64,000 nucleotides of DNA from Erwinia pyri (GTDB lineage: Bacteria; Pseudomonadota; Gammaproteobacteria; Enterobacterales; Enterobacteriaceae): positions 62,001 through 126,000 of the forward strand of contig NZ_CP132354.1 in the NCBI RefSeq assembly GCF_030758455.1, given 5' to 3'. Position numbers and translations under genes: made by a program. Positions 45,604 through 60,819 of the stretch are shown here, in pieces. Every line of letters begins with the position of its first letter. Position 1 is the first letter of the stretch. A model generated the notes under the pieces. It was not told the origin of the DNA. It saw only the letters and a list, made by a program, of their open reading frames with translations, and ran no database searches.

Positions 45604-46713
45604 CTAAAGCTTTTTCTTCTGCACTATCTTGCCCGTAGTGTTATCCATCCGGTATTCAGAGATGGTGCCGTCCAGAATGTATTTGATAACAGCTTGTACC
45701 GTGGCCAAAGGGCTATGAAACCACTCTCTGGGCGTGTAGGTACTGCCGTTAACCGCCCTTAGCGTAATATTAAGGCGCTGCTTGGCTAGGAAGCCATGCA
45801 CAAGTGCTTCAAGCCTGTTGGCATTCATGTTGAAGCATTGAGTGGTAAAAACAATCCTAACCGGCGCCTCAAGAAAGGTTCTGTCTTTGGCGGCATTCTC
45901 GATCCTTTTCTCCACAGTGGTCTCGGTAAACCCTATTTTGTAGAGATCACGGATGTAAGGTGTAAGTGCAGGATCTGTACTCCTGGTTGCCAGCACGTAG
46001 ACGAACCCACTCGGAACAGGCGCATCACTGGGTATCAGTTGCTGACTATTAAGTTCCACCTTACGCCCTTCCTTGTCACGAACAAGGCCCTGGGTCAGGG
46101 ACTGGTAGAGCATGTTGAGTTCAGTCCCATTCTCAAACACCAGATGCAGGCGGGCATTATAGGTATCGTACTGCTCAAGCCGCTCACCTGCACGATGAAC
46201 ATACCCCATCACCCCGCTGAGAATAAAAAAGTCACCTTCCTGGAATTTGTGCTCATTACGATAACGAATAAAGGAAAATACCCCATCCCGAAATCCTTTA
46301 TGTACTCGCGCGAACAAGGGAGAAAAACGTTCAAAGTCGGGGCAAGGCTGACGCCTGGCAATCTCATCAGGGAGGTCCTTCTTACCAACGGGAACATGCT
46401 TGATAGTGAAAATTTCAGGGGCATTAAAATCCAGCAAACCTAAGTCATCATCAGCAAAAATATCGTCCAATGAGGTTACCAGTTCTGACTTGCTTATCTC
46501 TGGGAGAGAAGCCAGCTCGACCTCCGGCGTTTCACTCAGATTTTGATTCACATAAGCGCCTGACAGCAGCCCATGGCGATCCCTCTCACGCAATATCTTG
46601 TACTGTTCAGGATTTGCCCGAATTGTATTAAGCTGCCGTGTTAGTGATTTCTCACTCATTGTGGCATTTGGTGTGTTTTGCGGTGCACGGCCATAACTAT
46701 CAACAAACGTCAT
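45604..46713 (-). CDS. GIY-YIG (T5orf172-type) nuclease of a helicase/methyltransferase cassette
   Basis: The product is 369 residues. The GIY-YIG-like domain is at about 237-335: GFVYVLATRSTDP, LYKIGFTETTVEKRIENAAK and the downstream EALVHGFLA with the conserved Glu. The N-terminal half binds an unknown partner (RQLNTIRANPEQYKILRERD is typical of this family). Relatives usually start with a segment like LDDIF...FGLLD, which here lies just upstream in another frame (46710-46826). So the ATG at 46713 may be a secondary start after a frameshift. Last gene of the minus-strand cassette. Confidence 0.8.
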   Translation of the reverse strand: MTFVDSYGRAPQNTPNATMSEKSLTRQLNTIRANPEQYKILRERDRHGLLSGAYVNQNLSETPEVELASLPEISKSELVTSLDDIFADDDLGLLDFNAPEIFTIKHVPVGKKDLPDEIARRQPCPDFERFSPLFARVHKGFRDGVFSFIRYRNEHKFQEGDFFILSGVMGYVHRAGERLEQYDTYNARLHLVFENGTELNMLYQSLTQGLVRDKEGRKVELNSQQLIPSDAPVPSGFVYVLATRSTDPALTPYIRDLYKIGFTETTVEKRIENAAKDRTFLEAPVRIVFTTQCFNMNANRLEALVHGFLAKQRLNITLRAVNGSTYTPREWFHSPLATVQAVIKYILDGTISEYRMDNTTGKIVQKKKL

Positions 46714-46826
46714 GATGCTCTCGACTGGCTACCGTTCAGATCCGTGGGGCCTGTCTTGGACTTCAGAGCTATGACATCCAGTAGCCCAAATACATCTTCC
46801 GCCGCGAAAATATCGTCGAGTGTCAT
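46710..46826 (-). pseudogene. Detached 5' segment of the GIY-YIG gene
   Basis: ATG 46826 (AGGAAAAAG upstream) opens a 38-residue frame MTLDDIFAAEDVFGLLDVIA that stops in the TGA overlapping the ATG at 46713. A similar motif (SLDDIFADDDLGLLD) occurs again inside the main protein. Either a frameshift split off the true N-terminus or this is a small coupled gene from a duplication. Confidence 0.5.
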
Positions 46827-46865
46827 CTTTTTCCTAGGTTGGGTAGAGTGCAAACTGATCATGAG

Positions 46866-48875
46866 TTAGCTTCCCTGCTTTGCCATTTGCGCCTGTTTTT
46901 TGTTGCGAAGGTAGGCCAGCACTTGGGCGTAGCGCACCTCCAACGGGTCACTCGATGTCAGCTCTGGTGGGTGTTGGTGTTGGCGGGCAAAGTCTTGGAT
47001 CCGCGGCCATAGAATAGTGGCCTCATCCTCTGACACTTGGGCCTGGCTTGCGCTAACAGCATCTTGAATGGTTTTGAGCATTGCCACGGTGACTGATTTT
47101 GAGAGAATTTCATAAGCACCGTGGAATGGGTTTACTGTCTCAATCAGGTCGATATTCAAATTTTCGATGTTGATGAACTTCTCACCCATCTTCAAAAACT
47201 GCCTGCTAACCGTTATCTCATCCGGGTCGTTGACTGGGGAGGGGCCACCCACGCTATCCGCGCCTTCCGGGACATCCTTCTCATCTACCAATACTCCGTG
47301 CTTATTGATGTAAAGGCTCTGCAGGATGCCAGACCGTATCTGCTCCAGTTCATAATCCGTCAGATCAGGATACATTTTTTGGATGGTTGCGGGTAAGGCC
47401 TCCTGAGTGATTAACTCTGCTGGCAGAGTATTGGATACTGCTTCCTTAACGAGTTGCTCATTAGCCATCAGGGTCGCCATGATCTCTTCTTTATCGCCGT
47501 TAAGAATATCGAGCACCTTTTTCGATACCGGGGCCACCTTATCATCGATAATTAGCGTGTTTGGAGGGAGATCTTCTCCATTCCATTGAGAACGTGGCTT
47601 GAATTGGATGCTGGGTGCCAAGATTTGCTCCATCAACAGTGAGGTAGTGATGGCCTTGAGCATGTTGTTGACCGATACTTTCACGTCATCATCCTGGGCA
47701 TCAGGCTGTGCGATCAGGTTAGTAAACTGGGCATGCGTCTTCCCTTTGCAATCACGTGTTGCGCGGCCAATGATCTGCACCACTTCAGTCAAAGAACTCC
47801 GATAGCCGATAGTCAATACATGCTCACAATACGGCCAGTCAAATCCCTCTTTTGCCATTCCCAGGGCAATGATGATGTCTATATCGTCTGCAGTTGCAAT
47901 GTTGCGCAAATATGCCTGCACCTTGGGCCGTTCAGCCACATTGTCATCAACCAGGTTAGCGACCTTCAAAAGTTTGCCATCTCCTTTACGTTTAACCCGA
48001 TAAACGCCGGATACCGGATCTTGAGACTCCACGTCACCCAGAGCATCCAATATGGCATCAACCTCCGTGTGCTTATCTTTGGTGGACTCGCCGGAATTGA
48101 CGTTAGGGATATGGATGATGGTTTTTTTTGTGGGATCGAGCACGGAGGGCAAAGCGTTAATATAGCGGCCTTGATAAAAATGATAACCGATGCCGAGTGA
48201 TTTCAGATGTTCATAGCCGTTTAACTGTTCGTAATAGGAGTAAGACACTTTAGTAAATTGGGCTTCATCCTCTGGTAGCAAAATAGGAACGGTATCGCCC
48301 CGGAAATAGGAGCCCGTCATGGCGACAATGTGCGCATGAGGCAGCTTCATCAGCGCATCGAGTAAAGCACCTAGCCGGCTGTTTTCATCGGCAGAAACGT
48401 GATGGAATTCGTCAATGGCCACCAAACAGTAGTCAAAAATAGCCACATCCATACTGTCGAAAGCAAAGCGCAAGGTGGCAGGAGTGCAGATTAGGATCTG
48501 ACCATCACCGTGCATAAAACGACGAAAAGCGGCCACCTTTCCCTTTTCCCCTCCACCGATACAGAGGTTATTCTCAGGCTCTACCGTCCAGTCAGCAAAG
48601 AAGCCGTATTGGGTGAGAGGGGTGTCTTTAAACGAAGATCCGATGGACATTTCTGGCACCGCTACGATGACCTTACGTACCCCCTGGTTGATCAGCTTGT
48701 CCAACCCCAGAAACATCAACGCCCGCGATTTACCACTGGCAGGTGGCGCTTTAAGCAGCAGGTAGGGGCTGTTGCGCTGCTCGAACACGCGGGCCTGCAT
48801 CTCGCGTATGCCCATGGTTTTTTGTGCTGTGCTTTGCCCCGTTTGGGCATAACTGACGTTAAGTATATTTTCCAT
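46866..48875 (-). CDS. DEAD/DEAH-like superfamily 2 helicase of the cassette
   Basis: The product is 669 residues from ATG 48875 (MENILNVSYAQTGQS). Helicase motifs: Walker A APPASGKS at 43-50, DEFHH for motif II near 155, MTGSY for motif III, and QIIGRATRD for motif VI. It resembles the translocase subunits of restriction-type systems (SSL2/HsdR-like core without a fused nuclease). It sits between the DNA methyltransferase and the GIY-YIG nuclease on one strand, so the likely role is to translocate or unwind DNA for the nuclease. Confidence 0.88.
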   Translation of the reverse strand: MENILNVSYAQTGQSTAQKTMGIREMQARVFEQRNSPYLLLKAPPASGKSRALMFLGLDKLINQGVRKVIVAVPEMSIGSSFKDTPLTQYGFFADWTVEPENNLCIGGGEKGKVAAFRRFMHGDGQILICTPATLRFAFDSMDVAIFDYCLVAIDEFHHVSADENSRLGALLDALMKLPHAHIVAMTGSYFRGDTVPILLPEDEAQFTKVSYSYYEQLNGYEHLKSLGIGYHFYQGRYINALPSVLDPTKKTIIHIPNVNSGESTKDKHTEVDAILDALGDVESQDPVSGVYRVKRKGDGKLLKVANLVDDNVAERPKVQAYLRNIATADDIDIIIALGMAKEGFDWPYCEHVLTIGYRSSLTEVVQIIGRATRDCKGKTHAQFTNLIAQPDAQDDDVKVSVNNMLKAITTSLLMEQILAPSIQFKPRSQWNGEDLPPNTLIIDDKVAPVSKKVLDILNGDKEEIMATLMANEQLVKEAVSNTLPAELITQEALPATIQKMYPDLTDYELEQIRSGILQSLYINKHGVLVDEKDVPEGADSVGGPSPVNDPDEITVSRQFLKMGEKFINIENLNIDLIETVNPFHGAYEILSKSVTVAMLKTIQDAVSASQAQVSEDEATILWPRIQDFARQHQHPPELTSSDPLEVRYAQVLAYLRNKKQAQMAKQGS

Positions 48876-48960
48876 AGCCACACCTGTTTCGTGGAGGATG
48901 GGCGACGCGGCAACCGACCGCACCCATCATCTGAAATTTGTTAGTAAGCCGTGTCAGCGG

Positions 48961-51333
48961 CTATTGATTCGTCAACTTTTCATACCGTGCAAGCAGAAAA
49001 CTCAGGCGATCAGCTGCATCCCTAAAGGGCTTATCGCCATAGAGCTCCGCGAGGGTACGACCAGGGAAGTCGTCTCGAGTCAGATAGACCTCTTCAGCCA
49101 GTCGTTTCACCTCTTCACGTTGTTCTGGTGTCACTGTTGGCCAAGGAAAGGTGTTGTAAACGACTTTATTGCCATAGCTGTAATCACTTTTTAAACGCAT
49201 CGCTACTAAGCGCATCCAGTCGTTATGGAGTATCGACGTGAGGATGCCAAACTCATATAAAGTGCCATTGGGAAGGATGAAGTTTTTATTGGTAGATATT
49301 ACATTGGCATCAAAGAAACCTATAGGTACGTAAGTTCGACGCTCAGATGAAACTGATGGCACAAGAATGTAATTTCCGGAGGTTGGTTGGCTTACCTGTA
49401 TAAAAATATGTGGTTTTTCAGCCATTTTTAGTGCAGCTGGATGACCAGCTTTCAGACGTAATTGCCGAATAGCTGCTGTTTTTTTCTGTACTTCAGGCAT
49501 AGTCTGTAAATCTTCATCATTAGCATTGACCAACCACAAACACCACCGCTCCTTGGCATTCAAAAATTCAGCAGCCCCCAGTACCTTTTTGAGCCATCGC
49601 TCGGCTTGAGGTTCTTTCTTTACCAACTCATCGCGTTCTTCTCTGGTCAGGAGCAGATGACCGCCATCCGTAGGCTTATTGCCAAATAAAAGAGGTGGGA
49701 TGTTGCTCACCAAAGGCTTGCTTCTTGCGATGATAGCAATATTACGTCCTTCAACCAGATAGGGGCTGATATTGCTGACGTTACTACTATGCCATTCGCC
49801 TTCGACTCGCTGGAACAAACGTCGTGTATTTGACTGTGCAGATAGTCCGATAATAACTACATGAACCGCTGCCTTGTCACGGGCATGGTTAGCCCAGGCG
49901 AACGTCGGATAAGCGAAGTGAATATTCAACCCAAGAGCGAAAATAGGAGGCCAGAGAGTGGCCACCTGGTCACCCTGGCAGATCGAGTTGGTCGACACCA
50001 AAGCAAGTTCAGCGCGGGAATTCTTAATATACTGTGCACCTTTCCAGAACCAGCAGGCGACAAAATCTAAATAGCCTAGTGTCATCTTACCAAACACAGC
50101 CTGCATATTCATTCGCTGTTCGTCAGTACGGCCTAGCGTACCTAGAAACGGTGGATTGCCGATCACATAAACTTCATCCTCTTTACCCTTGGGACAAACG
50201 GTATGCCAGTCTAGTACCAGACTGTCACCCCCTTGGATTTTCCCCGATGAGCGTAATGGCAGCGCGGGTGGTGCATAGCCAAAGATTTGCTCCCATTGCT
50301 TGTTGAGTTGATGCTCTGCCAGCCACAGTGCCAGACGGGCAATCTCACAGGTGAAATCGTCGATCTCAATTCCATAGAACTGGTCGAGGTGGAGATTAGT
50401 GATGTTGAATCCCTGTTGTGGATCCAACTCTTGCAATGCCCGGATAATGTCTATTTCTAATAAACGCAGTGCCTTGTAGGCAATGATCAAAAAATTGCCC
50501 GAGCCACATGCAGGGTCAAAAACCTTGATGTTGCCTATTCTAACTAACGGCTTTTTAAGGCCATTGGCACTGGTACTACTCTTTTCTAGTTCGGCTCTCA
50601 AAGGGTCGGTCGAGAAACAGAGGCTGGATCACCTTCATTATGTTGCTATAAGAGGTGTAGTGCTGCCCAAGATTGCCACGCTGCTCTACGTCAATGACGG
50701 CCTGGAACATGGAGCCGAAAATATCGGGGTTAATATCACCCCAGTTCATCAAACAGCACTCCAGTAAAATCCGGCGGCCTTTCAAGCCGAGATTAGGAAT
50801 GTGCTCATCCACCGCGAATAGCCCGCCGTTAACATAGGGAAAAGCAGACATATGGTTCGGTAATTGCTTACGGAAGTCACTCTTTGGGGGACTGTTCATA
50901 ACGGCAAATAGCAAACTCAGGAAATGGTCAAGGTCACTTCCATCTTCTTCCGTGTAGCCTTGAATGGCCGCGGTAAACTGCCCTTCAGTGAAAATACCGG
51001 TATCCTCAGCAAAAAGGCAGAACAGCAGGCGAGTGAGAAAAACGTTGAGGGCATGAATATCTTCTGCACTATTCAAATTGTTATGGATTTTAATGAGGTC
51101 GAAGAGCTTGCCCATTTTCTCGGCTGCTTTGACATCAGCGGGGTGTTCACTGCCCAAGATGGCCTTTTCTAAGCCAACGAGCGGCAAAAAGAAGCTATAC
51201 TCCCGGAACAGCTCACACAACTCGATATCAAGGCGTTCCTTGGTCAGCACATCCCACGCGAGAAAACGCGTAAAATCGGTGACCATGATAAATCGGTACT
51301 TGTTTTTGCCATTGGTCGGATCGGTTTCCCCTG
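48961..51333 (-). pseudogene. N6-adenine DNA methyltransferase, frameshifted and 5'-truncated
   Basis: Two frames join near 50590: one ends IQPLFLDRPFESRTRKE, the other starts RAELEKSSTSANGLKKPLVR. The first contains TDPTNGK, MVTDFTRFLAWD and GGLFAVDEHIPNLGLKG; the second has the SAM motif FDPACGSGNFLI and the catalytic NPPF (VIGNPPFLGTLG), then a long C-terminal target-recognition region. The protein belongs to the large class I DNA methyltransferases (COG1002/type IIG-like). The usual N-terminal part is missing because the sequence ends at about 51333 against a truncated umuD. The cassette is therefore probably inactive for methylation. Confidence 0.85.
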
Positions 51334-51668
51334 CTCAGGATTACGTCGAAAAAGAACTCGACCTCAACGAACTTTGCATCCGCAGACGGGCGTCAACGTT
51401 CTTTGTTCGTGCCAGCGGCAGCAGCATGCAGGATCTCGGGCTGTTTGATGGCGATGTCATGGTGGTCGACCGTGCCGAGGAAGCGTCACACGGCGACATA
51501 GTTGTTGCTGAGGTGAATGGCGAGTTCACAGTTAAGCGCCTGCAGCTGCATCCCCGCCTCGCCCTGTTGCCGATGAATCAGGCTTACGCGGTGATTTATC
51601 CTGAGGAACTGCAGCTGCTCGGCGTCGTCACCTGGTTCTTCAACAGCACCCGGGCGCGTGGGAGGTAA
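51330..51668 (+). pseudogene. umuD: umuD-type (RumA/MucA-like) SOS peptidase, 5'-truncated
   Basis: The frame is SPAQDYVEKELDLNELCIRR ... FVRASGSSMQDLGLFDGDVM ... GEFTVKRLQLHP. The catalytic Ser (GSSM) and Lys (TVKRL) of the LexA-like dyad are present. The first about 20-25 residues, with the Cys-Gly self-cleavage site, the LexA-controlled promoter and the start codon, are gone; the DNA switches to methyltransferase sequence at about 51330. The open frame upstream to 51078 is methyltransferase DNA read backwards. umuC follows two bases later. Confidence 0.85.
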
Positions 51669-51670
51669 TC

Positions 51671-51799
51671 ATGCCCATGTTCGGACTGGCCGACGTCAAC
51701 TCCTTTTACGCCAGCTGCGAGGCGTTGTTCCGCCCTGACCTGCGCGGTAAACCTGTAGTGGTGCTCAGCAACAATGATCTGAGTGATACCGACTGTTAG
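51671..51799 (+). pseudogene. umuC: umuC 5' fragment (DNA polymerase V catalytic subunit)
   Basis: ATG 51671 after GGAGG. MPMFGLADVNSFYASCEALF matches the first catalytic motif of UmuC (DVNSFYASCE) and continues to VVVLSNND. The frame then enters foreign DNA and stops. The break falls exactly inside the codons for SNND-GCVIAR, and the rest of umuC resumes at 53900. Confidence 0.9.
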
Positions 51800-51981
51800 T
51801 AACACGGCCTTCGGATGTCCAGGTCAGTGGTAACGGTTTGACCTGCAGCTACCGATGCAAAGCTACCCTTCGGCACCAGCAGAAACCGGCCAAAAGCCCC
51901 CCCTTTATCAACAAGCTTGGCTTACCCCGAAACGGCTTGGGATTGTGCCAGCGCGAGGCAGTAGCTGCGCTGGCCTGCTGA

Positions 51982-53037
51982 TCAGCCTACGGAATACAGC
52001 GGCGCATCGATTTCATCGAACTTGCCACCGGTGATGAGATCCTTGATGCGTGGATCGTCAAGTACCGTATAAGGATAACCGCGTGGGATCGCGCTAATCT
52101 GATCGAGACGCGCTACTTGCTCAAGCGACAAGGCAACTTTTGCCGCAGCAAGGTTACTCTCAAGTTGGAGCAGCGTACGCGGGCCAATGATCGGCAATGA
52201 CCCTTTAGCGGAGACCCACGCGACGGCGATTTCACCAGGGGTAACCCCCGCCTCATGGGAAATCGCGAGTAAGGTATCAATAATCGCGCTGCGCTGCGGT
52301 GTATTCTCGGGTTGAAATCCGGCGCCGCCCCACGCGTCGTTACGACGGCTTTCCATATTTTGGTTGCGGTATTTCCCTGTGAGGACACCACCGCCTAACG
52401 GCGAATAAGCCACCACACCGAGACCTAACGCGGCTGCGGCGGAAATCAAGTCCTGTTCAGTCGCGCGCTGAACCAGACTATGCTCGACTTGAATGCCCGC
52501 GATTGGTACGGTGCCGCGCAATTCGGCGATAGTCGCGGCGCGTGCAACGCGCCAAGCAGGAAAATTGGAAAGACCGGCATACAAAATTTTACCGGCCCGT
52601 ACAAGGTCATCGAAGCCTCGCATGATCTCTTCCATAGGCGTCACGCCATCATCCACATGCGCCCAGTACAAATCGATACGATCAGTTTTGAGCCGCTTCA
52701 AACTGGCTTCAACCGATGCCACCATGGCCTGACGGCTGTTGCCTGTTGCGAGAATGCCTGAGTTTGCATCCGTCTTGACAGCAAATTTAGTTGAAATGAC
52801 AAACTCTTCCCTTCGGCCTTTCAACAAGTCGCCAACAAATTGCTCTGACTGACCATCCTGGTAGCCGTTGGCTGTATCAATGAAGTTGCCACCTGCGCTG
52901 GCATAAGTGTCGAAAATACGGCGCGCTTCATCCGGATCGGCCCCGTGGCCGCCCCAAGCCACACCGAAATTCGCCGTCCCGAGTACCAGTTCGGAAACTC
53001 GCAAGCCAGTATGCTTCCCAAAAATTTTATAACGCAT
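51982..53037 (-). CDS. Aldo/keto reductase (passenger of the umuC insertion)
   Basis: A 351-residue NADPH-dependent carbonyl reductase. Catalytic tetrad: Asp and Tyr in FIDTANGYQDGQSEQFVG, Lys in FVISTKFAV and His in DLYWAHVDD. The cofactor end is IIGPRTLLQLESNLAA. Start ATG 53037 (MRYKIFGKHTGLRVSELVLG). Divergent from the TetR gene at 53138 with tandem operators between, so probably induced by a reactive aldehyde or quinone. Confidence 0.92.
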   Translation of the reverse strand: MRYKIFGKHTGLRVSELVLGTANFGVAWGGHGADPDEARRIFDTYASAGGNFIDTANGYQDGQSEQFVGDLLKGRREEFVISTKFAVKTDANSGILATGNSRQAMVASVEASLKRLKTDRIDLYWAHVDDGVTPMEEIMRGFDDLVRAGKILYAGLSNFPAWRVARAATIAELRGTVPIAGIQVEHSLVQRATEQDLISAAAALGLGVVAYSPLGGGVLTGKYRNQNMESRRNDAWGGAGFQPENTPQRSAIIDTLLAISHEAGVTPGEIAVAWVSAKGSLPIIGPRTLLQLESNLAAAKVALSLEQVARLDQISAIPRGYPYTVLDDPRIKDLITGGKFDEIDAPLYSVG

Positions 53038-53084
53038 GTGTCACTCCTTGTTGTCGTCCCTAATGCAGCGGCGCTACAATAAAA

Positions 53085-53119
53085 GGATCAGGGATCCACA
53101 TCTTCTGGATCACCGATCC
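53085..53119. promoter_or_regulatory. Tandem operator GGATC-N3-GATCC x2
   Basis: Two 13-bp palindromes, GGATCAGGGATCC (53085-53097) and GGATCACCGATCC (53107-53119), are exactly 22 bp apart (two helical turns) in the divergent promoter of the reductase and TetR genes. They are likely binding sites for the TetR dimer. Confidence 0.65.
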
Positions 53120-53137
53120 GTTTGTCAAGGAGTGTTT

Positions 53138-53716
53138 ATGCGGGCTGATGCAAAAGAAAACTATAACCACCTGCTTGTGACTGCGCGGGCCGTCGTCGCC
53201 GAGGATGGTGCAAACGCATCAATGCGCGATATTGCTCGCAAAGCTGGGGTAGGACCTGCCACCCTTTTCCGGCACTTCCCTACGCGAGATGCGCTACTCG
53301 ACACGTTGCTGAGGAGTACCCTCGAAGAGCTGACGCGAAAGGCTGGCGTACTGGAATCTGCCTCTTCCGCTGATGAAGCGCTGGTTGCCTGGCTGCGCGA
53401 TGCGGTGGCGTTTGTTCGGATTTATAGTGGGGTAGTCACGTTGATGGCCACTGCGCTTTCAGACGCCAGTTCAGCCTTGCATGCTTCATGTGAAAACCTG
53501 CGCAGCGCTGGCACACGCCTCTTGACGCGCGCACAAGCTGAGGGAAGGGCCGACAAGAATATGACAGGCAGCGATATGTTCGCGCTGATTGGGGCGCTAG
53601 GCTGGATTGGCGATCAGGCCTCGTACTCCGCGCGCAGCGATTATCTGTTTGATGTCATCGCCAGCGCAATTCTGACAAATCGGCCAGGACGTGATGTTGC
53701 GATTGGTACGATCTAA
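53138..53716 (+). CDS. TetR-family regulator (passenger of the umuC insertion)
   Basis: The product is 192 residues from ATG 53138, with AAGGAG five bases upstream; the open frame back to 53036 is not coding. HTH: ASMRDIARKAGVGPATLFRH, then FPTRDALLDTLLRSTLEELT. The C-terminal helical pocket belongs to the group that regulates adjacent reductases. It probably represses the aldo/keto reductase and itself. Confidence 0.9.
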   Translation: MRADAKENYNHLLVTARAVVAEDGANASMRDIARKAGVGPATLFRHFPTRDALLDTLLRSTLEELTRKAGVLESASSADEALVAWLRDAVAFVRIYSGVVTLMATALSDASSALHASCENLRSAGTRLLTRAQAEGRADKNMTGSDMFALIGALGWIGDQASYSARSDYLFDVIASAILTNRPGRDVAIGTI

Positions 53717-53901
53717 CCGTATCGCCAAACCACTCCAGGCCGGACGTTCGCTTTGGGCTGATAGCTGCCTCTGACTATGGCCTTCAGGAGAAGTTTGTAG
53801 CGTGGATGGAGCTGAAGTCGTGGAAATGTTAGTAGAAATATTTATTTAAAAATCAGTAAATTAATAATAATTAATAGTTAGTCTCATTCAGATACAATGA
53901 C

Positions 53902-55071
53902 GGCTGTGTTATTGCCCGCAGCGCAACCGCAAAAAAATACATCAGAATGGGCGAGCCATGGTTTAAGATTAAAAACGAACATTATCCTGAGAAAATATTT
54001 ATATTTTCAAGTAATTACGCTCTATACCACTCAATGTCTCAGCGCGTAATGACGGCACTGGAAGAAATGACGCCGCGGGTCGAGCAGTACTCAATCGACG
54101 AGATGTTCCTGGATCTGACAGGCATCGATTCCTGCGAGGACTTTGAGCACTTTGGCCGGCGCCTGCGATCTCATGTACTGGCCACGACCGGCCTGACAGT
54201 GGGATGTGGCCTGGGCCCCACCAAAACCCTCGCAAAATCCGCTCAGTGGGCAAGCAAAGAATGGAAGCAGTTCCGCGGGGTGCTGGCTCTCATGCCGGGG
54301 AATCCCAGACGCACTCAAACCCTTCTGTCCAGGCAGCCCGTAGAGGAAATCTGGGGTGTAGGCCGGCGCATCGGTAAACGCCTTAACCAAATGGGCATAG
54401 AAAATGCCCTGCAGCTGGCCAGCGCGCCCCCCGCCCTCATCCGTAAAAACTTCAGCGTCGTGCTGGAGCGCACCGTGCGTGAGCTCAACGGCGAATCCTG
54501 CATTCCTCTTGAGGAACTGCCCCCGGCAAAACAGCAGATAGTTTCCAGCCGCTCTTTTGGTGAGCGCATCACCCTGAAGTCATCTATGCAGGAAGCGCTG
54601 TGCCAGTACGCGACGCGCGCGGCTGAAAAACTCAGAAAAGAACGTCAGTTCTGCCGTCATATTGGCGTATTCATCCGCACCTCCCCGCACGCGCAGGGAG
54701 AGATATTTTACGGTAACAGCGCCGGAGAGAAGCTCTCTCTGCCGACCCAGGATACGCGTGACATCATTGAGGTGGCCATGCGATCGCTTGACCGCATCTG
54801 GCTGGAAGGCCGCCGCTATATGACGGCGGGCATCATGCTTGATGACTTCACGCCGAATGGCGTGAGTCAGCTGAACCTCTTTGATGACAGTCAGCCGCGG
54901 GCAAACAGCGCACAGCTAATGAAAGTGCTGGATGGCATAAATCAGTCGGGACTGGGAAACCTGTGGTTTGCGCGTCAGGGGGTAGATAATGAATGGAAAA
55001 TGAAACGGGAGCTGCTTTCGCCAGCATGGACGACCCGGTGGGAGGATATTCCTGTTGCACGCGTATTGTGA
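53902..55071 (+). pseudogene. umuC: umuC 3' part (Y-family polymerase V), separated from its start
   Basis: The frame resumes GCVIARSATAKKYIRMGEPW and runs 389 codons to 55071. Visible Y-family features are VEQYSIDEMFLDLTG (catalytic SIDE), TVGCGLGPTKTLAKSAQWAS, EEIWGVGRRIGKRL and the little-finger and C-terminal regions. Joined to 51671-51778 through ACAATG it gives a 425-residue UmuC of normal length. Alone, translation could start at ATG 53947, but the first catalytic Asp would be missing, so polymerase activity is not expected. Confidence 0.9.
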
Positions 55072-55195
55072 GTGCTGGCAACCAGTTTCCTTTAGCTTCG
55101 TGAACATTGCGCTGATTTAATCCGCTGACCGTATACGATAGTAACCTGACAGAATATTATGAATATCAACTGACTTTATAAATGAGGAACTATAA

Positions 55196-55396
55196 ATGAG
55201 ATATAACCATGCGAGAGGACCCGTAAGCTTTGATATAAAGCGTAAACTGGTTGAGCTTATACAGACACATAAGGATGCAGATTCACTGGCAGAAGATATC
55301 ATTGAACTGATTGCTGTAGGCAGAAGCGATCCAGATGGTTTCCGCGCTGTCAGTACTGAGCTGGACAGGATGAAAAGCCTTGACCTGAAGAAATAA
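55196..55396 (+). CDS. Small hypothetical protein
   Basis: The product is 66 residues starting MRYNHARGPVSFDIKRKLVE; helical and charged. GAGGA lies about eight bases before the ATG. No family recognised. It lies downstream of umuC in the plasmid-like segment. Confidence 0.55.
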   Translation: MRYNHARGPVSFDIKRKLVELIQTHKDADSLAEDIIELIAVGRSDPDGFRAVSTELDRMKSLDLKK

Positions 55397-55443
55397 TGGT
55401 CAAAACCATTTTACTTAAAAGCCGGAAAACAAACCACAAATGT

Positions 55444-55457
55444 AATACACGTGTATT
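55444..55457. promoter_or_regulatory. 14-bp perfect palindrome, shared core with 56536
   Basis: AATACACGTGTATT. The core ATACA-NN-TGTAT recurs at 56536-56547. The two sites flank the minus-strand genes 55512-56510. Confidence 0.55.
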
Positions 55458-55488
55458 TCACAGGAAATACATTTGTGCGAAAATTAAA

Positions 55489-55506
55489 AACCCGCCGCAG
55501 CGGGTT
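55489..55506 (-). terminator. Rho-independent terminator (minus strand)
   Basis: The stem AACCCGC/GCGGGTT has a TGCG loop and is followed by TTTTA on the minus strand, ending the 55512-56510 gene pair. Confidence 0.75.
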
Positions 55507-55511
55507 ACACA

Positions 55512-55898
55512 TTAACCGATTCGTCGCAGCCTCGGTGAACCTGCCAGCATGCCGGACTGACGCTCAATAGCAGCCTGTGGCTTCCAGTCACTGTGATCGC
55601 GACGCTGACGTCCCGAGCCGGTCACCATTTCCCTGAGTCGTTCAACAGGCGTGCGTTGCTGCTGACCGACATACACAATACGCATGAGAGACTGCATCAT
55701 CACATTGCTTACGCTGTCAGCACTCTTCAGGCCATGACGGTCCGGGCGTGAAGCAACCAGTTCATCAAGCACGGCGCGATATTCACTGGTAAAGTCACCG
55801 TATGTCAGAGAGGCAGGGACAGAACCAGCACTGCTCACATCGGGCGCTGCCGGCCCGGCATTACGCTCAATAGCAGTTTTCAGTTTCAGTATGGCCAT
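55512..55898 (-). CDS. Hypothetical plasmid-type protein
   Basis: The product is 128 residues starting MAILKLKTAIERNAGPAAPD. The middle (FTSEYRAVLDELVASRPDRH) and Arg-rich C-terminus (SGRQRRDHSDWK) suggest a nucleic-acid-binding protein. Not recognised. It forms a likely two-gene operon with the GNAT-like gene upstream at 55950 and ends at a terminator. Confidence 0.55.
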   Translation of the reverse strand: MAILKLKTAIERNAGPAAPDVSSAGSVPASLTYGDFTSEYRAVLDELVASRPDRHGLKSADSVSNVMMQSLMRIVYVGQQQRTPVERLREMVTGSGRQRRDHSDWKPQAAIERQSGMLAGSPRLRRIG

Positions 55899-55949
55899 AA
55901 TCCCCCCTTAGTTATGTTTATTTTAGCACACAAGGTGCTCACAAAACAC

Positions 55950-56510
55950 TCAGCCATCCATCCGTTTGACTAACACCTTCGCCCGAATTTTGCAGCCACG
56001 CTTTTCTCTGTTCTCATCAGCAGCACTGAGCTTATAACCCTGCGAACGGTAAAGCGGCACAAGCGCTCTGTCAGGCTGGCTGACCATTACCGTCTGTGCT
56101 CCGTATGCCTCCGCAAAGCTTTCCGCTACGATCATCCCTACCGGCAAAAGATAACCACTGAGCGGATTCGGGAACGGGTTAGATTCGAGGTAGCGCAAAG
56201 TGACGTTGATACGGCGGCGGGATACGCGGGCAAAAAGAAGGCCGCACAATTCATCACCACACCAGATACCGACATCAATTTTGTCCCGATTCTGAACACG
56301 TCTCGCCAGCCAGTTAAAATCTATGCCCAGAAAAGCACGGTCGGGATGCTGGCGCCACGCCGGATGTACAATAGCCCAGTCATCAGGGACTATCTTATCG
56401 AGACGGATAAGATTCACCGGCAACACGTGCCCAAAGTTATCGTCGATAGTCAGGATGGCCAGCGCCAGCGCCTGTGCCCTCTTTTGCCTGTGTTCCTGAA
56501 GTGTTGCCAT
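55950..56510 (-). CDS. GNAT-like acetyltransferase domain protein
   Basis: The product is 186 residues. The segment DVGIWCGDELCGLLFARVSR followed by a long helix (GYLLPVGMIVAESFAEAYGA) and RALVPLYRSQGYKL has the order of a GNAT fold (strand, acetyl-CoA helix, final Tyr strand). The acetyl-CoA loop is not canonical (no clear R/QxxGxG/A), so activity is uncertain. First gene of the minus-strand pair, preceded by the palindromic site at 56536. Confidence 0.5.
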   Translation of the reverse strand: MATLQEHRQKRAQALALAILTIDDNFGHVLPVNLIRLDKIVPDDWAIVHPAWRQHPDRAFLGIDFNWLARRVQNRDKIDVGIWCGDELCGLLFARVSRRRINVTLRYLESNPFPNPLSGYLLPVGMIVAESFAEAYGAQTVMVSQPDRALVPLYRSQGYKLSAADENREKRGCKIRAKVLVKRMDG

Positions 56511-56535
56511 TGCGACCTCAAACGCATATCAATAC

Positions 56536-56547
56536 ATACAATTGTAT
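56536..56547. promoter_or_regulatory. 12-bp palindrome upstream of the GNAT-like gene
   Basis: ATACAATTGTAT, with a further imperfect copy (TTGTATTC...GAAATACA) at about 56553-56574. Probably an operator for the 55512-56510 genes. Confidence 0.55.
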
Positions 56548-56593
56548 TACATTTGTATTCGAATTGAAATACATATGCACTGCAATTTTTATG

Positions 56594-56999
56594 TTATGCC
56601 CGCTTTGTAAACGCGGTTTCAAGCCTCTCCACGATATCCGAAAGGTCAGGTGATACGTGACAGAATTTTTTAACGATTGCCTCTAGTACCTGACAGGCTT
56701 CTTCAAGATCCTGGTGAGTAATATCATTTCCGTGACTGCCAGCGTTCCCGACAGCCTTAAGCGCATTAATGGCTGCAGCGTCATCTCCGAACAACTTCAG
56801 CCCGCTCTCAATACGGCGGTGAAGATTGTTTGCAACAGAGACACCCATGACATCCATCAGTATCTCAAGAAGGCGTCTGATGGCATTTGCCGCTGCGGCA
56901 TTGCTAACCGTAAGCAGTGAAGAAATGACGTTCATCTGCTGCATAATTTCGGGCTGGCAGCCTGCAGGCAGCAAAAAAAGTGGCAGAGGGGGTGTAAAA
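56594..56999 (-). pseudogene. DUF4145-type protein truncated by the Tn3-family element
   Basis: The C-terminal part of a DUF4145 protein: NAAAANAIRRLLEILMDVMG, LHRRIESGLKLFG, ALKAVGNAGSHGNDIT. The frame is open up to the transposon end at 57000 (PPLPLFLLPAGCQPEIMQQM), but the N-terminal half is absent. A TTG at 56974 could start a short product. The lost half is not found to the right of the transposon within this window. Confidence 0.7.
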
Positions 57000-57022
57000 G
57001 GGGTCAGTTTGGATATCGAAAA

Positions 57023-60010
57023 TTATTGTACGTTAAGGTTGTTTTTTGACCTTTCTACTTTAGCTGGCCTCAGCCGACGAAACTTACCGGAAGCCGGTAT
57101 CCGGTTACTCTTCCAGATATAATCGCCTGTCAGATTGATGTGTTCCCAGCCTAGCGGGGACAAATGCGACAGCAGTTGCTCGTTGATCTTCACCCCTTTA
57201 CGCTTCAGGGCATCGACTGCTCTTTCCATATAGACGGTATTCCACAGCGAGATAGCTGCCGTCAGCAGCGTCAGTCCACTGGCGCGGTAGCTCTGATTTT
57301 CCGGTTTTCGGTCCCTGATTTCACCCAGCCGATGCAGGAATACCGCACGCGCCAGCGCGTTACGGGCTTCTCCTTTATTCAGTCCCGCCTGTACCCGCCG
57401 ACGAAGTGCTGGATCGCGGAACCAGTCGAGCATAAACAGCGTTCGTTCAATACGGCCAATTTCCCTCAGTGCTTTGGCAAGTCCGTTTTGCTTGGGGTAG
57501 CTGGCAAGCTTTTTCAGCATCAGGGATGCCGTCACGGTTCCCTGCTTTATCGAGGTTGCCAGACGCAGCACTTCACGCCAGTGAATTTCGATCTCTTTCA
57601 GATTCAGGCCGGTTGTTGATATCAGTGACTGAAGCGCCGGGTATTGGCCAGCTTTCCCTTTGATAAACAGCTTCTTGTCATGGAGATCCCTGATTCGCGG
57701 ACAGAACGCAAATCCCAGCAGATGCATCAGGGCAAAGACATGATCGGTGAAACCAGCGGTATCGGTGTAATGCTCCCTGATTTCCAGGTCGCTTTCGTGG
57801 TACAGCAAGCCATCGAGAACATGGGTTGAATCCCTGACCCGGCTGATTATGCAGGTGTAAAACGGGCTGTATTGATCCGAAATATGGGTATAAAACTGAC
57901 GTCCAGGCTCCTGCCCATATTTCGGGTTAACCTGCCCTGCGTAGCGGCCTGAGCTACCTGTTCTGAAATTTTGTCCGTCTGATGATGACGTTGTTCCGTC
58001 ACCCCAGAATGCCGCCAGCGGTCTTTTCCCCTGCGCATTTACCAGCTCGGCAAGAGCGGCTGAATAGGTTTCATCACGGATGTACCATGCCTGAATCTCT
58101 TCGAGTGATGATTTGGTGCTCCCGGGGCAGGCTTCTGCCATTCTGGTCAGGCCAAGATTGATGCCATCCGCAAGAATGGTGGTGAGGAGCAGGCGGGTAT
58201 CGGGACGGATAGTGTCATTTTTTATATGCGAAAAATGTCGGGTAAACGTCGTCCAGCTGTTTACCTCATCGAGAATTTCCGTGATTTTAGGTCGCGGTAG
58301 CATGCTGTAAACCAGCTCTGCCAGCGGTGAAACCTGCGCCGGAACGCAGTTATCCAGCGGAGAGACTTTTACGCCCCTGTCGGATATTTTCACATCGGGC
58401 AGTTCACCAAGGGCAGCCATGGCATTGACCTCTTCAAGTCTGGACTGAAGCAGGGTCATACGGCTGGTAATGTACTCATGATAATCAGCAGATACAGGCA
58501 GTGGCAGCGCCGGTGTGAGTTTGTCAAAGTCCTTTTCGGGTATGAGGTAATCATCAAAATTTTTGTAGCGGCGCGAGCCTTTGACCCAGATATCCCCGGA
58601 GCGCAACGCCCCCTTAAGCTCGCTGAGCGCACAAAATTCATAGTACTGCCGGTCAATACCCGCAGGTGTAATCACCACCTTGCGCCAGCTTTCAGGGACA
58701 AAATCAAGCGGCGCTGCCGCCGGAACTTTACGTGACTGCTTCCGGTACATCTCCTTGATCACAACCAGTGCATCAGCCAGAGGTTGCGCTGCCGGGGTTG
58801 CGACTAACTGTAAAGCGGACAACATGCGCGGGGCATATTTCCGTAATGTGCTGTATTTCTCGGTAATAATATGCAGCGGGTCAAAATTATTTTTTCTGGC
58901 GAGATGGCGTGTTTCCTCCAGACTGGCGACAAATTCAGGCCATGGCAGTATGTTTTCTATTGCGAGCCAGGGATCGCCACCGGAATCACGGGCATCAGAC
59001 AGCGCCTGACCGACATCGATATACTGCCTCAGTTTTGACTGGATCAGCTTTCCAGTCTGCTGAAGGCGCTCAGCCTGTGTTCTTTTGGCTTTGCTGAAAA
59101 GGCTGTTCAGCATTCGCTCATGCAGCTCAATCACTTCGTCTGTCAGTGTTGCTCTGGCTTCTTCAAGCACGCACACCAGAGTCGCATGACGCCGGGCTGC
59201 TGAAAATCGGGTCAAATCCCGGCTACTCATCTTTCGGCCTTCCCGCGCCAGTTTCAGCAACCGGTTCTGGTGAATGGCACGATCTATACCTTCAGGTAAT
59301 GCCAGCGATTCAATGCAACTGAGCCGATCAAGATGTTGCAGCACGTTCTTACCATTGATTTTACCCGGCGGTTGCAGAAGCCATGTCAGCCTGGAAGGCT
59401 GATTATCTGATGACTCAAGTAAACGATCCAGGGCATCCCTGTGAGCCGGAGTTAACGGGGCATTCAGGGTCTGAAATACGATTTTATCGCCGCCTGTCAT
59501 GGCCTCCGCACAGGTACGCTCCACGACATCAATCGCGGGGATTATCACGTTGTTCTGCCGGAGCCAGACCAGTAACTCTTCGGCCAGGAGAATGCCTTTA
59601 TCGGTGCGTGTCGCCATCGACAGCAGGTGTCTAATACAGTCATGCTGTATTTTGCCTGTGAACGCCTTTACGCCAAGATAGCGGTACAGTTCAGTTAAAT
59701 GCTCACGCCGGGTCGTTTCCCTGCCGGAAAGGTAAGCAGGCCAGAGATCCCCGGTAAGCTTTAGCCTGCTGGCGATATGCTTCAGCAGCGCATCAGAGGG
59801 TGGGATTTTTTTATCCGGGGCAAAGCCGACATTTTTCAGATAGCAAAGAAGGACGGCAAAACCAAAACGGCTGGCGGGTTTACGGTGAGCACTGATAAGC
59901 GCCAGATCATGCTCACTGAAATACTCCATTCGGGCCAGCGTTAACTCATCGTCCGGTAATGCCAGTAATGATTCTCTTTCCGACAGAGAAAGGATCTGCC
60001 TCCTTGCCAT
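57023..60010 (-). CDS. tnpA: Tn3-family transposase
   Basis: The product is 995 residues, full length for Tn3 TnpA. It has the N-terminal DUF4158-like part (SLSERESLLALPDDELTLAR) and a C-terminal DDE region (FWGDGTTSSSDGQNFRTG; GLLYHESDLEIREHYTDTAG; ARNALARAVF). ATG 60010 (MARRQILSLSERE) has GAGGG upstream and is preferred over 60052. The C-terminus runs into the left terminal repeat as usual. The frame is intact, so the protein is potentially active. Confidence 0.95.
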   Translation of the reverse strand: MARRQILSLSERESLLALPDDELTLARMEYFSEHDLALISAHRKPASRFGFAVLLCYLKNVGFAPDKKIPPSDALLKHIASRLKLTGDLWPAYLSGRETTRREHLTELYRYLGVKAFTGKIQHDCIRHLLSMATRTDKGILLAEELLVWLRQNNVIIPAIDVVERTCAEAMTGGDKIVFQTLNAPLTPAHRDALDRLLESSDNQPSRLTWLLQPPGKINGKNVLQHLDRLSCIESLALPEGIDRAIHQNRLLKLAREGRKMSSRDLTRFSAARRHATLVCVLEEARATLTDEVIELHERMLNSLFSKAKRTQAERLQQTGKLIQSKLRQYIDVGQALSDARDSGGDPWLAIENILPWPEFVASLEETRHLARKNNFDPLHIITEKYSTLRKYAPRMLSALQLVATPAAQPLADALVVIKEMYRKQSRKVPAAAPLDFVPESWRKVVITPAGIDRQYYEFCALSELKGALRSGDIWVKGSRRYKNFDDYLIPEKDFDKLTPALPLPVSADYHEYITSRMTLLQSRLEEVNAMAALGELPDVKISDRGVKVSPLDNCVPAQVSPLAELVYSMLPRPKITEILDEVNSWTTFTRHFSHIKNDTIRPDTRLLLTTILADGINLGLTRMAEACPGSTKSSLEEIQAWYIRDETYSAALAELVNAQGKRPLAAFWGDGTTSSSDGQNFRTGSSGRYAGQVNPKYGQEPGRQFYTHISDQYSPFYTCIISRVRDSTHVLDGLLYHESDLEIREHYTDTAGFTDHVFALMHLLGFAFCPRIRDLHDKKLFIKGKAGQYPALQSLISTTGLNLKEIEIHWREVLRLATSIKQGTVTASLMLKKLASYPKQNGLAKALREIGRIERTLFMLDWFRDPALRRRVQAGLNKGEARNALARAVFLHRLGEIRDRKPENQSYRASGLTLLTAAISLWNTVYMERAVDALKRKGVKINEQLLSHLSPLGWEHINLTGDYIWKSNRIPASGKFRRLRPAKVERSKNNLNVQ

Positions 60011-60059
60011 ATAATTTCCCTCATAAATTATTCGATGCGGTATTTTTAACAAAAGTGGT

Positions 60060-60177
60060 TATCGCATAAGGGTACACCCTGACGCCATAACCAAAACGTG
60101 ACGACACACAATGAATGACATAACCTATATGCGATAGATTAAATGCGATAACCTACATGCGATAACACGGTGAAAAA
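60060..60177. promoter_or_regulatory. res site / divergent tnpA-tnpR promoter with iterated ATGCGATA
   Basis: ATGCGATA occurs at 60129, 60143 and 60157, exactly 14 bp apart, and its complement TATCGCAT at 60060. These are probably resolvase-binding half sites that also place both promoters under TnpR control. Confidence 0.7.
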
Positions 60178-60819
60178 ATGTTCATCAGAGCTTATTTGAG
60201 AGCATCGACGGAAGATCAGTTCGCCGATCGTGCTAAAGAGATGCTGGAGCAGTTCGTTCAGGAGCGAGGGCATAAAATCGGCAGTTACTACCGGGAAAAT
60301 ATCAGTGGCACAAAACTTGAGCGCCCGGAACTGGAACGCTTACTGAAGGACAGTCACCAAAATGATATTTTACTGGTCGAGCAGATAGACCGTCTGACAC
60401 GTCTCAGCAACAGCGACTGGATGGCGCTAAAAAAACAGATAGAACAACATGAGCTGCGAATTGTCAGTCTTGATGTGCCCACATCATGGCAGGCACTGTC
60501 AGATAAGGACCCTTCGCAGGCCGACCCGATCACCCGCGCAGTAATAACCGCCATCAATAACATGCTTATCGATCTGATGGCCGCAATGTCACATAAGGAC
60601 TGGCTGAGCCGCCGCCAGCGGCAAAAACAGGGAATCGAGCGGGCTCATACAATTGGAAAGTACCGGGGTAAGCAAGCCGATCAGGAACGGCATCAGAAAG
60701 TCCTGTACTACCGGCAGGTAAAGAAACTGAGTATCCGGGAAACGGCGGATGCTACAGGCTACAGTGCTTCACAGGTTTGCCGGATACAAGCGCTTCATAA
60801 AAATAATGAAACTGCCTGA
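60178..60819 (+). CDS. tnpR: Tn3-family serine resolvase
   Basis: The product is 213 residues. Catalytic Ser10 in MFIRAYLRAS; the active-site arginine region is EQIDRLTRLS; a C-terminal HTH is LSIRETADATGYSASQVCRI. Resolves cointegrates at the neighbouring res and represses transcription. Divergent from tnpA. Intact, in contrast with the stub at 24504-24692, from which it clearly differs. Confidence 0.93.
   Translation: MFIRAYLRASTEDQFADRAKEMLEQFVQERGHKIGSYYRENISGTKLERPELERLLKDSHQNDILLVEQIDRLTRLSNSDWMALKKQIEQHELRIVSLDVPTSWQALSDKDPSQADPITRAVITAINNMLIDLMAAMSHKDWLSRRQRQKQGIERAHTIGKYRGKQADQERHQKVLYYRQVKKLSIRETADATGYSASQVCRIQALHKNNETA

Follow-up and report, generated by a model that had tools for sequence, protein, structure and literature searches.

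How does a DNA segment that encodes only two proteins, neither of them with a recombinase domain, come to sit between neighbouring codons of umuC? The question is raised by a locus of Erwinia pyri in the 64,000-nucleotide stretch analysed here (the window, whose numbering is used throughout). In it, 2,117 bp (51777-53893) interrupt umuC at its Asn-Asn-Asp codons (SNN|D), between two ACAATG copies read directly from the sequence (51771-51776 and 53894-53899). These borders agree to the base with the original prediction, which took the insert for a passenger cassette moved by a transposase encoded elsewhere and the flanking repeat for a 6-bp target duplication. The replicon that bears it, contig C2 of 182,370 bases, is probably a plasmid.

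Architecture of the insert and its host operon

The locus comprises the following features, in which 'fingerprint' and 'footprint' are terms of the SE model discussed below.

51285..51668, plus strand: umuD remnant (Peptidase_S24) that has lost its 5' end and with it the cleavage region (Pfam/NCBIfam, five relatives)
51671..51776, plus strand: umuC 5' part, 35 codons ending in ...VVLSNN, plus a G (translation, aligned to allele L013)
51771..51776, plus strand: left 6-bp crossover sequence ACAATG, 'fingerprint' side (sequence, core table)
51777..51802, plus strand: element left end, with inverted arm ATCTGAGTGA... and GTTAGT at 51795-51800 (left-end alignment, 19/26 against the right arm)
51803..51981, no strand: left non-coding part, without detectable recombinase-operon remnant (lenient tblastn)
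51982..53037, minus strand: aldo/keto reductase, 351 aa (PF00248, E 9.8e-72), nearest database proteins 95% identical
53138..53716, plus strand: TetR-family regulator, divergent from the reductase (PF00440 and PF21597)
53814..53893, plus strand: element right end, with GTTAGT at 53828-53833 and 53877-53882 and inverted arm 53868-53893
53894..53899, plus strand: right 6-bp crossover sequence ACAATG, 'footprint' side (sequence, core table)
53894..55071, plus strand: umuC 3' part with IMS, IMS_HHH, IMS_C and DUF4113, PRK03609 on 53947-55071 (Pfam/NCBIfam)

The two ends of the insert (left, ATCTGAGTGATACCGACTGTTAGTAA; right, as reverse complement, ATCTGAATGAGACTAACTATTAATTA) are related inverted sequences, as had been proposed. 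They form an imperfect 26-bp repeat with 19/26 matching positions (binomial P 3.6e-7), and only 4 of 200,000 random position pairs with the same spacing within the window reach 19 matches. Imperfect inverted terminal motifs, which in SEs span 13-19 bp, are therefore found at the exact ends of the insert. A 22-base consensus of these ends has two sites in the window at up to three mismatches (0.00 expected), and a scan of the window found no second right or left end. The last 80 bp of the insert have 21.2% GC versus 54.0% for the whole insert, a short AT-rich 3' end like that of GInts.

The two umuC parts, counted separately from 51671 and from the Asp codon, lie in one frame and give 35 + 390 codons, that is, the 425 residues expected. 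The comparison with an uninterrupted allele bore this out as well, since in L013 (Erwinia billingiae TH88 plasmid) umuC runs straight through the predicted junction. In the window, umuD is without the N-terminal (C/A)-GFPSP cleavage region found in the five relatives compared; with umuD truncated at its 5' end and umuC interrupted, the operon has been damaged twice. The proposed inactivation of an error-prone polymerase thus holds for this umuC copy, but umuD is also truncated and contig C1 of Erwinia pyri has three long umuC homologues, so that the cell need not lack Pol V. Contig C2 itself also contains umuC fragments at C2:599-942 and C2:145437-146063.

The surroundings of the operon show further rearrangement. 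At 51285-51330, umuD abuts a 5'-truncated MmeI-type restriction-modification gene on the opposite strand, and it looks as if a deletion had fused the two genes head to head. The MmeI-type gene (48961-51286) is in two frames, 48961-50601 and 50576-51286, and its N-terminal domain match begins at profile position 111 of 181. About 2 kb past umuC, a Tn3-family transposase (1009 aa) and a resolvase are found at 57023-60819.

The insert carries cargo genes only

Pfam recognised Aldo_ket_red and TetR_N/TetR_C_43 in the two genes of the insert, nothing else and no recombinase domain, in line with the predicted content of an aldo/keto reductase and a TetR repressor. The TetR start at 53138 is our choice, the longest open reading frame beginning at 53036. 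A similar divergent reductase/TetR pair lies amid other genes in Pararhizobium, which identifies the pair as cargo. Judged from its gene content, this cargo looks like a stand-alone detoxification unit, in which the reductase is divergent from its TetR regulator.

The same reductase-tetR unit was anticipated at other sites and did not turn up. No second copy at near identity was found in PLSDB (72,556 plasmid records), the insert occupies one place only in the Erwinia pyri genome, and among 147 genomes those other than its own gave partial matches only. The distant plasmid matches, among those listed, cover at most 61% of the insert and fall in the reductase/TetR genes or in unannotated DNA.

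Homologous ends dock at the same umuC codons

In contrast to the cargo, the right end of the insert has homologues. The segment 53824-53899 has matches, ending at the same umuC codon, on plasmids from Mixta, Providencia, Rahnella, Klebsiella and Pantoea (best E 4e-9; 75-81% identity among the matches listed, 20 of 180 records at E<=10). In the fetched loci carrying a right end, umuC lies behind it, except in L110. The Mixta right end retrieved 43 PLSDB records, or 40 after removal of three partial, AT-rich Borreliella matches, and these 40 include pGRT1, a described ILE carrier.

Thirty-one loci were examined. In 14 of them umuC contains both ends, one of which was identified by eye in L091 and in L092, and G319 became the fifteenth two-ended locus after its left end was fetched. 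One-ended loci (L060, L062, L090, L095, L098, L100 and L104) were excluded before the 15-locus count. Other candidates were rejected: the left-end matches of L096 and L097 are due to chance, with no umuC at the match; L105-L108 and L111 have neither umuC nor a right end; L109 has umuC fragments only; and L110 has a right end without recognisable umuC.

The ends were aligned from 15 left-end candidates (including the chance match L096) and 21 right ends, window included. A typical left end reads (core)ATCTGAGTGnTnnnnnnnGTTAGT, and a typical right end is AT-rich, about 75 bp long, with two GTTAGT-type motifs, and terminates in CATTCAGAT(core). The aligned ends have inverted arms and GTTAGT motifs in common, at the same umuC codons; the left arm of the window element is shared but weaker, with 18/26 positions agreeing with the family consensus. 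In the predicted circle, the arms mirror each other around the 6-bp core, which is the form of a tyrosine-recombinase crossover site.

The 6-bp copies themselves speak against a target duplication, as the left and right copies are unequal in 8 of the 15 comparable loci (L059, L091, L092, L094, L099, L102, L103 and G319). For this reason, ACAATG is best read as a 6-bp crossover sequence. Unequal cores are not the product of a fresh transposase duplication, although in any single locus later mutation could explain them. In the window both copies of what would be the 6-bp spacer of SEs are ACAATG, so they hold no footprint information.

When 392 family genomes (own included) were searched with the 22-base consensus and three mismatches allowed, 103 had matches, mostly with three mismatches, and the reversed control matched many too; those in G322, G319, G288, G438 and G480 are true right ends at umuC. 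With a 21-base form of the consensus, genome contigs gave three exact matches, two in Bacteroidota and one in Motilimonas; with a less strict form, viral contigs gave eight. Separately, the left end at L062:12000-12060 (Pantoea agglomerans) resembles that of the window over 32 bases at 87.5% and adjoins the apparent end of a umuC N-part; no right end was found in this locus, which is possibly a decayed close relative.

The recombinase-less relatives carry varied cargo:

L059: arsenic genes with MFS, GNAT and LysR genes
L061 (Klebsiella pneumoniae INF235): microcin B17-like cluster, L061:7337-15070
L088: one glutathione transferase, total element length 1,172 bp
L089: heavy-metal ATPase and cadR
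L091: AAA ATPase, partial defence-type matches
L093/L094: two genes, matching PADLOC OloB (E 4.8e-81) and half of OloA (E 1.8e-18)
L102: AAA_13 protein and GrpB
L103: MFS fragment and ArsR-rhodanese protein
L058: IS1 only, L058:13943-15070 (1,128 bp), both ends present, almost empty

The pair of L093/L094 is thus OloA/OloB-like (Olokun). Anti-phage-type genes recur near the site, in L093/L094, L091, L102 and the one-ended L090 (AbiE) and L104 (PtuA-like). The umuC 3' sides of L090 and L061 are 98.7% identical, but AbiE genes precede the L090 right end. Besides the Asn-Asn-Asp site, a second umuC break is seen at L059:13915-17232, after codons SSNYAL, followed by a two-integrase stretch and, further on, copper genes; a partial umuC at L058:16283-17335 begins near the SSNYAL codons. 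This break may match the second place in UmuC for which PMC4458695 describes islands.

A recombinase operon in 4 of the 15 two-ended loci

In a Providencia locus (L063), four genes without further annotated cargo lie between the ends. The first encodes a recombinase of 385 aa (Phage_integrase), the second a 522-aa protein in which this domain is absent, the third a recombinase of 613 aa and the fourth a protein of 137 aa with no Pfam match. Their order (integrase domain, none, large protein with integrase domain, small protein) is that of intA-tfp-intB-srap in SEs, a likeness in order and domains only. On these sequence features, the operon of the relatives fits better with SEs than with ginABCD of GInts, whose third protein has no catalytic motif according to PMC10214605.

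Such a four-gene operon lies between the ends in 4 of the 15 two-ended loci (L063, L092 with an IS in intB, L099, a complete element on the megaplasmid of Pseudomonas putida S12, and G319) and is absent from the other 11, window element included; as L093 and L094 carry one element, these amount to ten distinct recombinase-less elements. Absence was scored only in two-ended loci, since the one-ended L098 has a tfp gene about 21 kb upstream. The figure of 11/15 is not an overall frequency, because the right-end queries came mainly from recombinase-less elements and many tfp records fall outside the set. Indeed, 13 of the 40 right-end PLSDB records recur among the best 60 of 156 tfp records and 27 do not, many of the latter being related Klebsiella plasmids; 59 of these best 60 are at least 66% identical, and 46 of the 59, nearly all Pseudomonas, are outside the right-end set.

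For the window element, 12 operon proteins gave no tblastn match at E<=1e-5 in 46000-60000, and lenient tblastn against 51701-52000 returned at best a 10-residue match (E 0.045), so no remnant was seen. Across the Erwinia pyri genome, no tfp-like match was found in a search with a working positive control, and no intB-like match in a search without one. Among 295 family genomes (own included), the tfp protein has a full-length match in one, G319, and fragments at 24-25% in two more.

A recombinase-less relative has moved

Two of the operon-less loci allow movement to be followed. The element of L093, from a plasmid of Klebsiella oxytoca, and that of L094, from one of K. michiganensis, agree at 1761/1761 and 899/900 positions and in the right end at 76/76, which corresponds to 99.9-100% identity over 2,737 of the 2,931 bases of L093; L094 is 4,172 bases long, with about 1.2 kb of additional sequence close to its right end. 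The flanking umuD/umuC alleles, by comparison, are only 70-76% identical (215/309 on the left, 645/853 on the right). Moreover, an empty allele, L119, matches the 499-bp left flank of L094 exactly and its right flank at 1000/1000.

The cores complete the picture. That of L119 is ACAATG; in L094 the left copy is ACAATG and the right copy ACAACG, and both copies of L093 are ACAACG. In the SE model as described in PMC10214605, the 6 bp of the target stay on the left ('fingerprint') and those of the donor arrive on the right ('footprint'). The cores of L094, native on the left and of L093 type on the right, match this prediction. An identical element in divergent alleles, an empty allele and this core pattern together lead to the conclusion that a recombinase-less element of the family has moved. 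They show the precise transfer of one such relative between umuC alleles, and the move of L094 was apparently recent.

Two further pairs are weaker parallels. As far as the right end, the arsenic element of L059 (Mixta) agrees with L100 at 911/912 positions, while the flank beyond agrees at 98/143; the left side of L100, however, lies beyond the contig start. The right ends of L098 and L101 agree at 84/85 and their flanks at 528/832, but both records carry the operon upstream.

Origin of the window insert

The explanation that we favour, with considerable confidence, is that the insert belongs, as a member without recombinase genes, to a site-specific family docking in umuC/rulB and was mobilised in trans by a helper. 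A helper element in the same cell would supply the products of an IntA-Tfp-IntB-Srap-like operon, which would bind the inverted arms and exchange strands across the 6-bp core. The element would thereby circularise as right arm, 6 bp and left arm, and the circle would insert into the umuC of a plasmid, with ACAAYG within the conserved Asn-Asn-Asp codons as its target. The site, the orientation, the two homologous ends and the absence of a recombinase operon are observed; with no second copy of the window element known, its own movement in trans is what we infer. Against this explanation count, besides the missing second copy, the two identical cores and the left end, which agrees with the family consensus at 18/26 positions only; moreover, no helper operon was found in the assembled Erwinia pyri genome, and in SEs plasmid-borne intA or intB reportedly did not restore recombination by complementation (PMC10214605). 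For GInts, complementing single gin mutants is described to restore circles (PMC5385486), and the L093/L094 case argues for trans action in nature.

Decay in place, by which a complete element inserted and later lost its operon while the 2.1-kb form never moved, would make the insert similar to a CIME. That operon deletion does occur is indicated by the intA stubs of two operon-less loci (24 codons in L089, 37 in L091), and the loss of integration genes with attL/attR kept is a described outcome (PMC5704250); the lack of a second copy of the window element also fits. However, no intA or operon stub was seen in the window, although none would be expected after a clean deletion, and at least one recombinase-less element (L093/L094) moved in that form. 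We consider decay in place a possible but rather unlikely origin.

The mobile insertion cassette of the original prediction, for which an IS with the same ends would supply a DDE transposase and 6 bp of target would be duplicated, appears very improbable. Transposase-less IS-ended cassettes (MICs) exist, and inverted ends at the exact termini together with a perfect 6-bp repeat are what they would show. Yet the 22-base end consensus has only one other site in the Erwinia pyri genome, with three mismatches, and homologous ends are fixed at one umuC codon position, with a tyrosine-recombinase operon between them in 4/15 loci. This site fixation contradicts the cassette, and the unequal 6-bp copies in 8/15 loci are also against it. 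The ends belong with umuC-specific tyrosine-recombinase elements at a hotspot already described in PMC4542609, so mobility by an IS-type transposase has to be given up. What survives of the prediction is a non-autonomous unit with its own ends and without its own enzyme; full elements with homologous ends do exist in other genomes, but carry a tyrosine-recombinase operon. As for a foreign segment brought into umuC by chance or by homologous recombination between plasmids, the diversity of plasmid umuC alleles and the truncated window umuD would agree with it, but the borders are exact, the ends inverted and both of them homologous to other insertions at the same codon. Contradicted by these shared ends, it is scarcely credible.

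Beyond the single locus, we lean slightly towards regarding the Asn-Asn-Asp codons of plasmid umuC as a slot in which many cargo cassettes without recombinase genes dock, moved in trans by an SE-type copy-out recombinase. These would be cassettes of 1.1-7.7 kb with reductase/TetR, arsenic, cadmium, glutathione transferase, microcin B17-like or anti-phage-like genes, and autonomous elements would provide the recombinase. Such a system would be integron-like, with umuC as attachment site and different recombinases.

Relation to known systems

The hotspot, the full elements and the mechanism class are already known (PMC4542609, PMC5385486, PMC10214605, PMC4458695). For ILEs in rulB, the Pseudomonas umuC homologue, a repeated GAT is described where element and gene meet, followed inwards by CTGAGGG (PMC4542609, Rhodes et al. 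2014), to which GAT-CTGAGTG corresponds in the window. The target gene family is the same, the GAT is that of the Asp codon in SNN-D, and the right end is homologous (pGRT1). However, ILEs measure 9-16 kb, and their first 5 kb hold a tetR homologue besides three recombinase-like genes (PMC4542609), whereas the window element has 2.1 kb and none of these genes; its TetR has PF00440/PF21597, and the small operon protein of L063 has no Pfam match. The authors of that paper saw no repeats at the ends, whereas inverted arms are visible here.

With SEs, as outlined in PMC10214605 and PMC9345347, the window element shares imperfect inverted terminal motifs. A 6-bp spacer with a left 'fingerprint' and a right 'footprint' is seen in the relative L094 against its empty allele, and the two ACAATG copies of the window would be its equivalent. 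The window element has no intA, tfp, intB or srap; neither 'umuC' nor 'rulB' occurs in the main text of these two papers. GInts resemble it, by the account of Bardaji et al. 2017 (PMC5385486), in site specificity, 6-nt staggered exchange, hybrid att sites, a short AT-rich 3' end and variable cargo. They differ in the defining ginABCD, absent from the window element when probed with umuC-type operon proteins and Pfam. As targets of GInts, that paper names ssb and genes for an ABC transporter and a ribonucleotide reductase, but not umuC.

As in CIMEs, attL/attR-type ends are kept and recombination genes are gone; however, CIMEs are presented as decayed ICEs/IMEs in tandem with an active element (PMC5704250), whereas in the present family one member has moved on its own. 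The ICEPan umuDC islands of Pantoea ananatis also lie in umuC of Erwiniaceae, and ICEPanBD442, after UmuC position 37, is near the window site; yet these islands are about 11 and 13.7 kb long and the others lie at UmuC position 88 (PMC4458695).

The claim that no element of this composition had been described therefore falls for the full-length relatives (ILEs) and stands for the cargo-only forms: no open-access title or abstract on recombinase-less umuC members or their movement was found. The recombinase operon is the defining part of GInts (PMC5385486) and the search handle for SEs (PMC10214605), and recombinase-keyed searches will miss cargo-only elements. The comparison of L093, L094 and L119 amounts to an experiment made by nature, the precise movement of an element that has no recombinase genes, and trans-mobilisation is thereby open to a direct test with two short ends and one operon.
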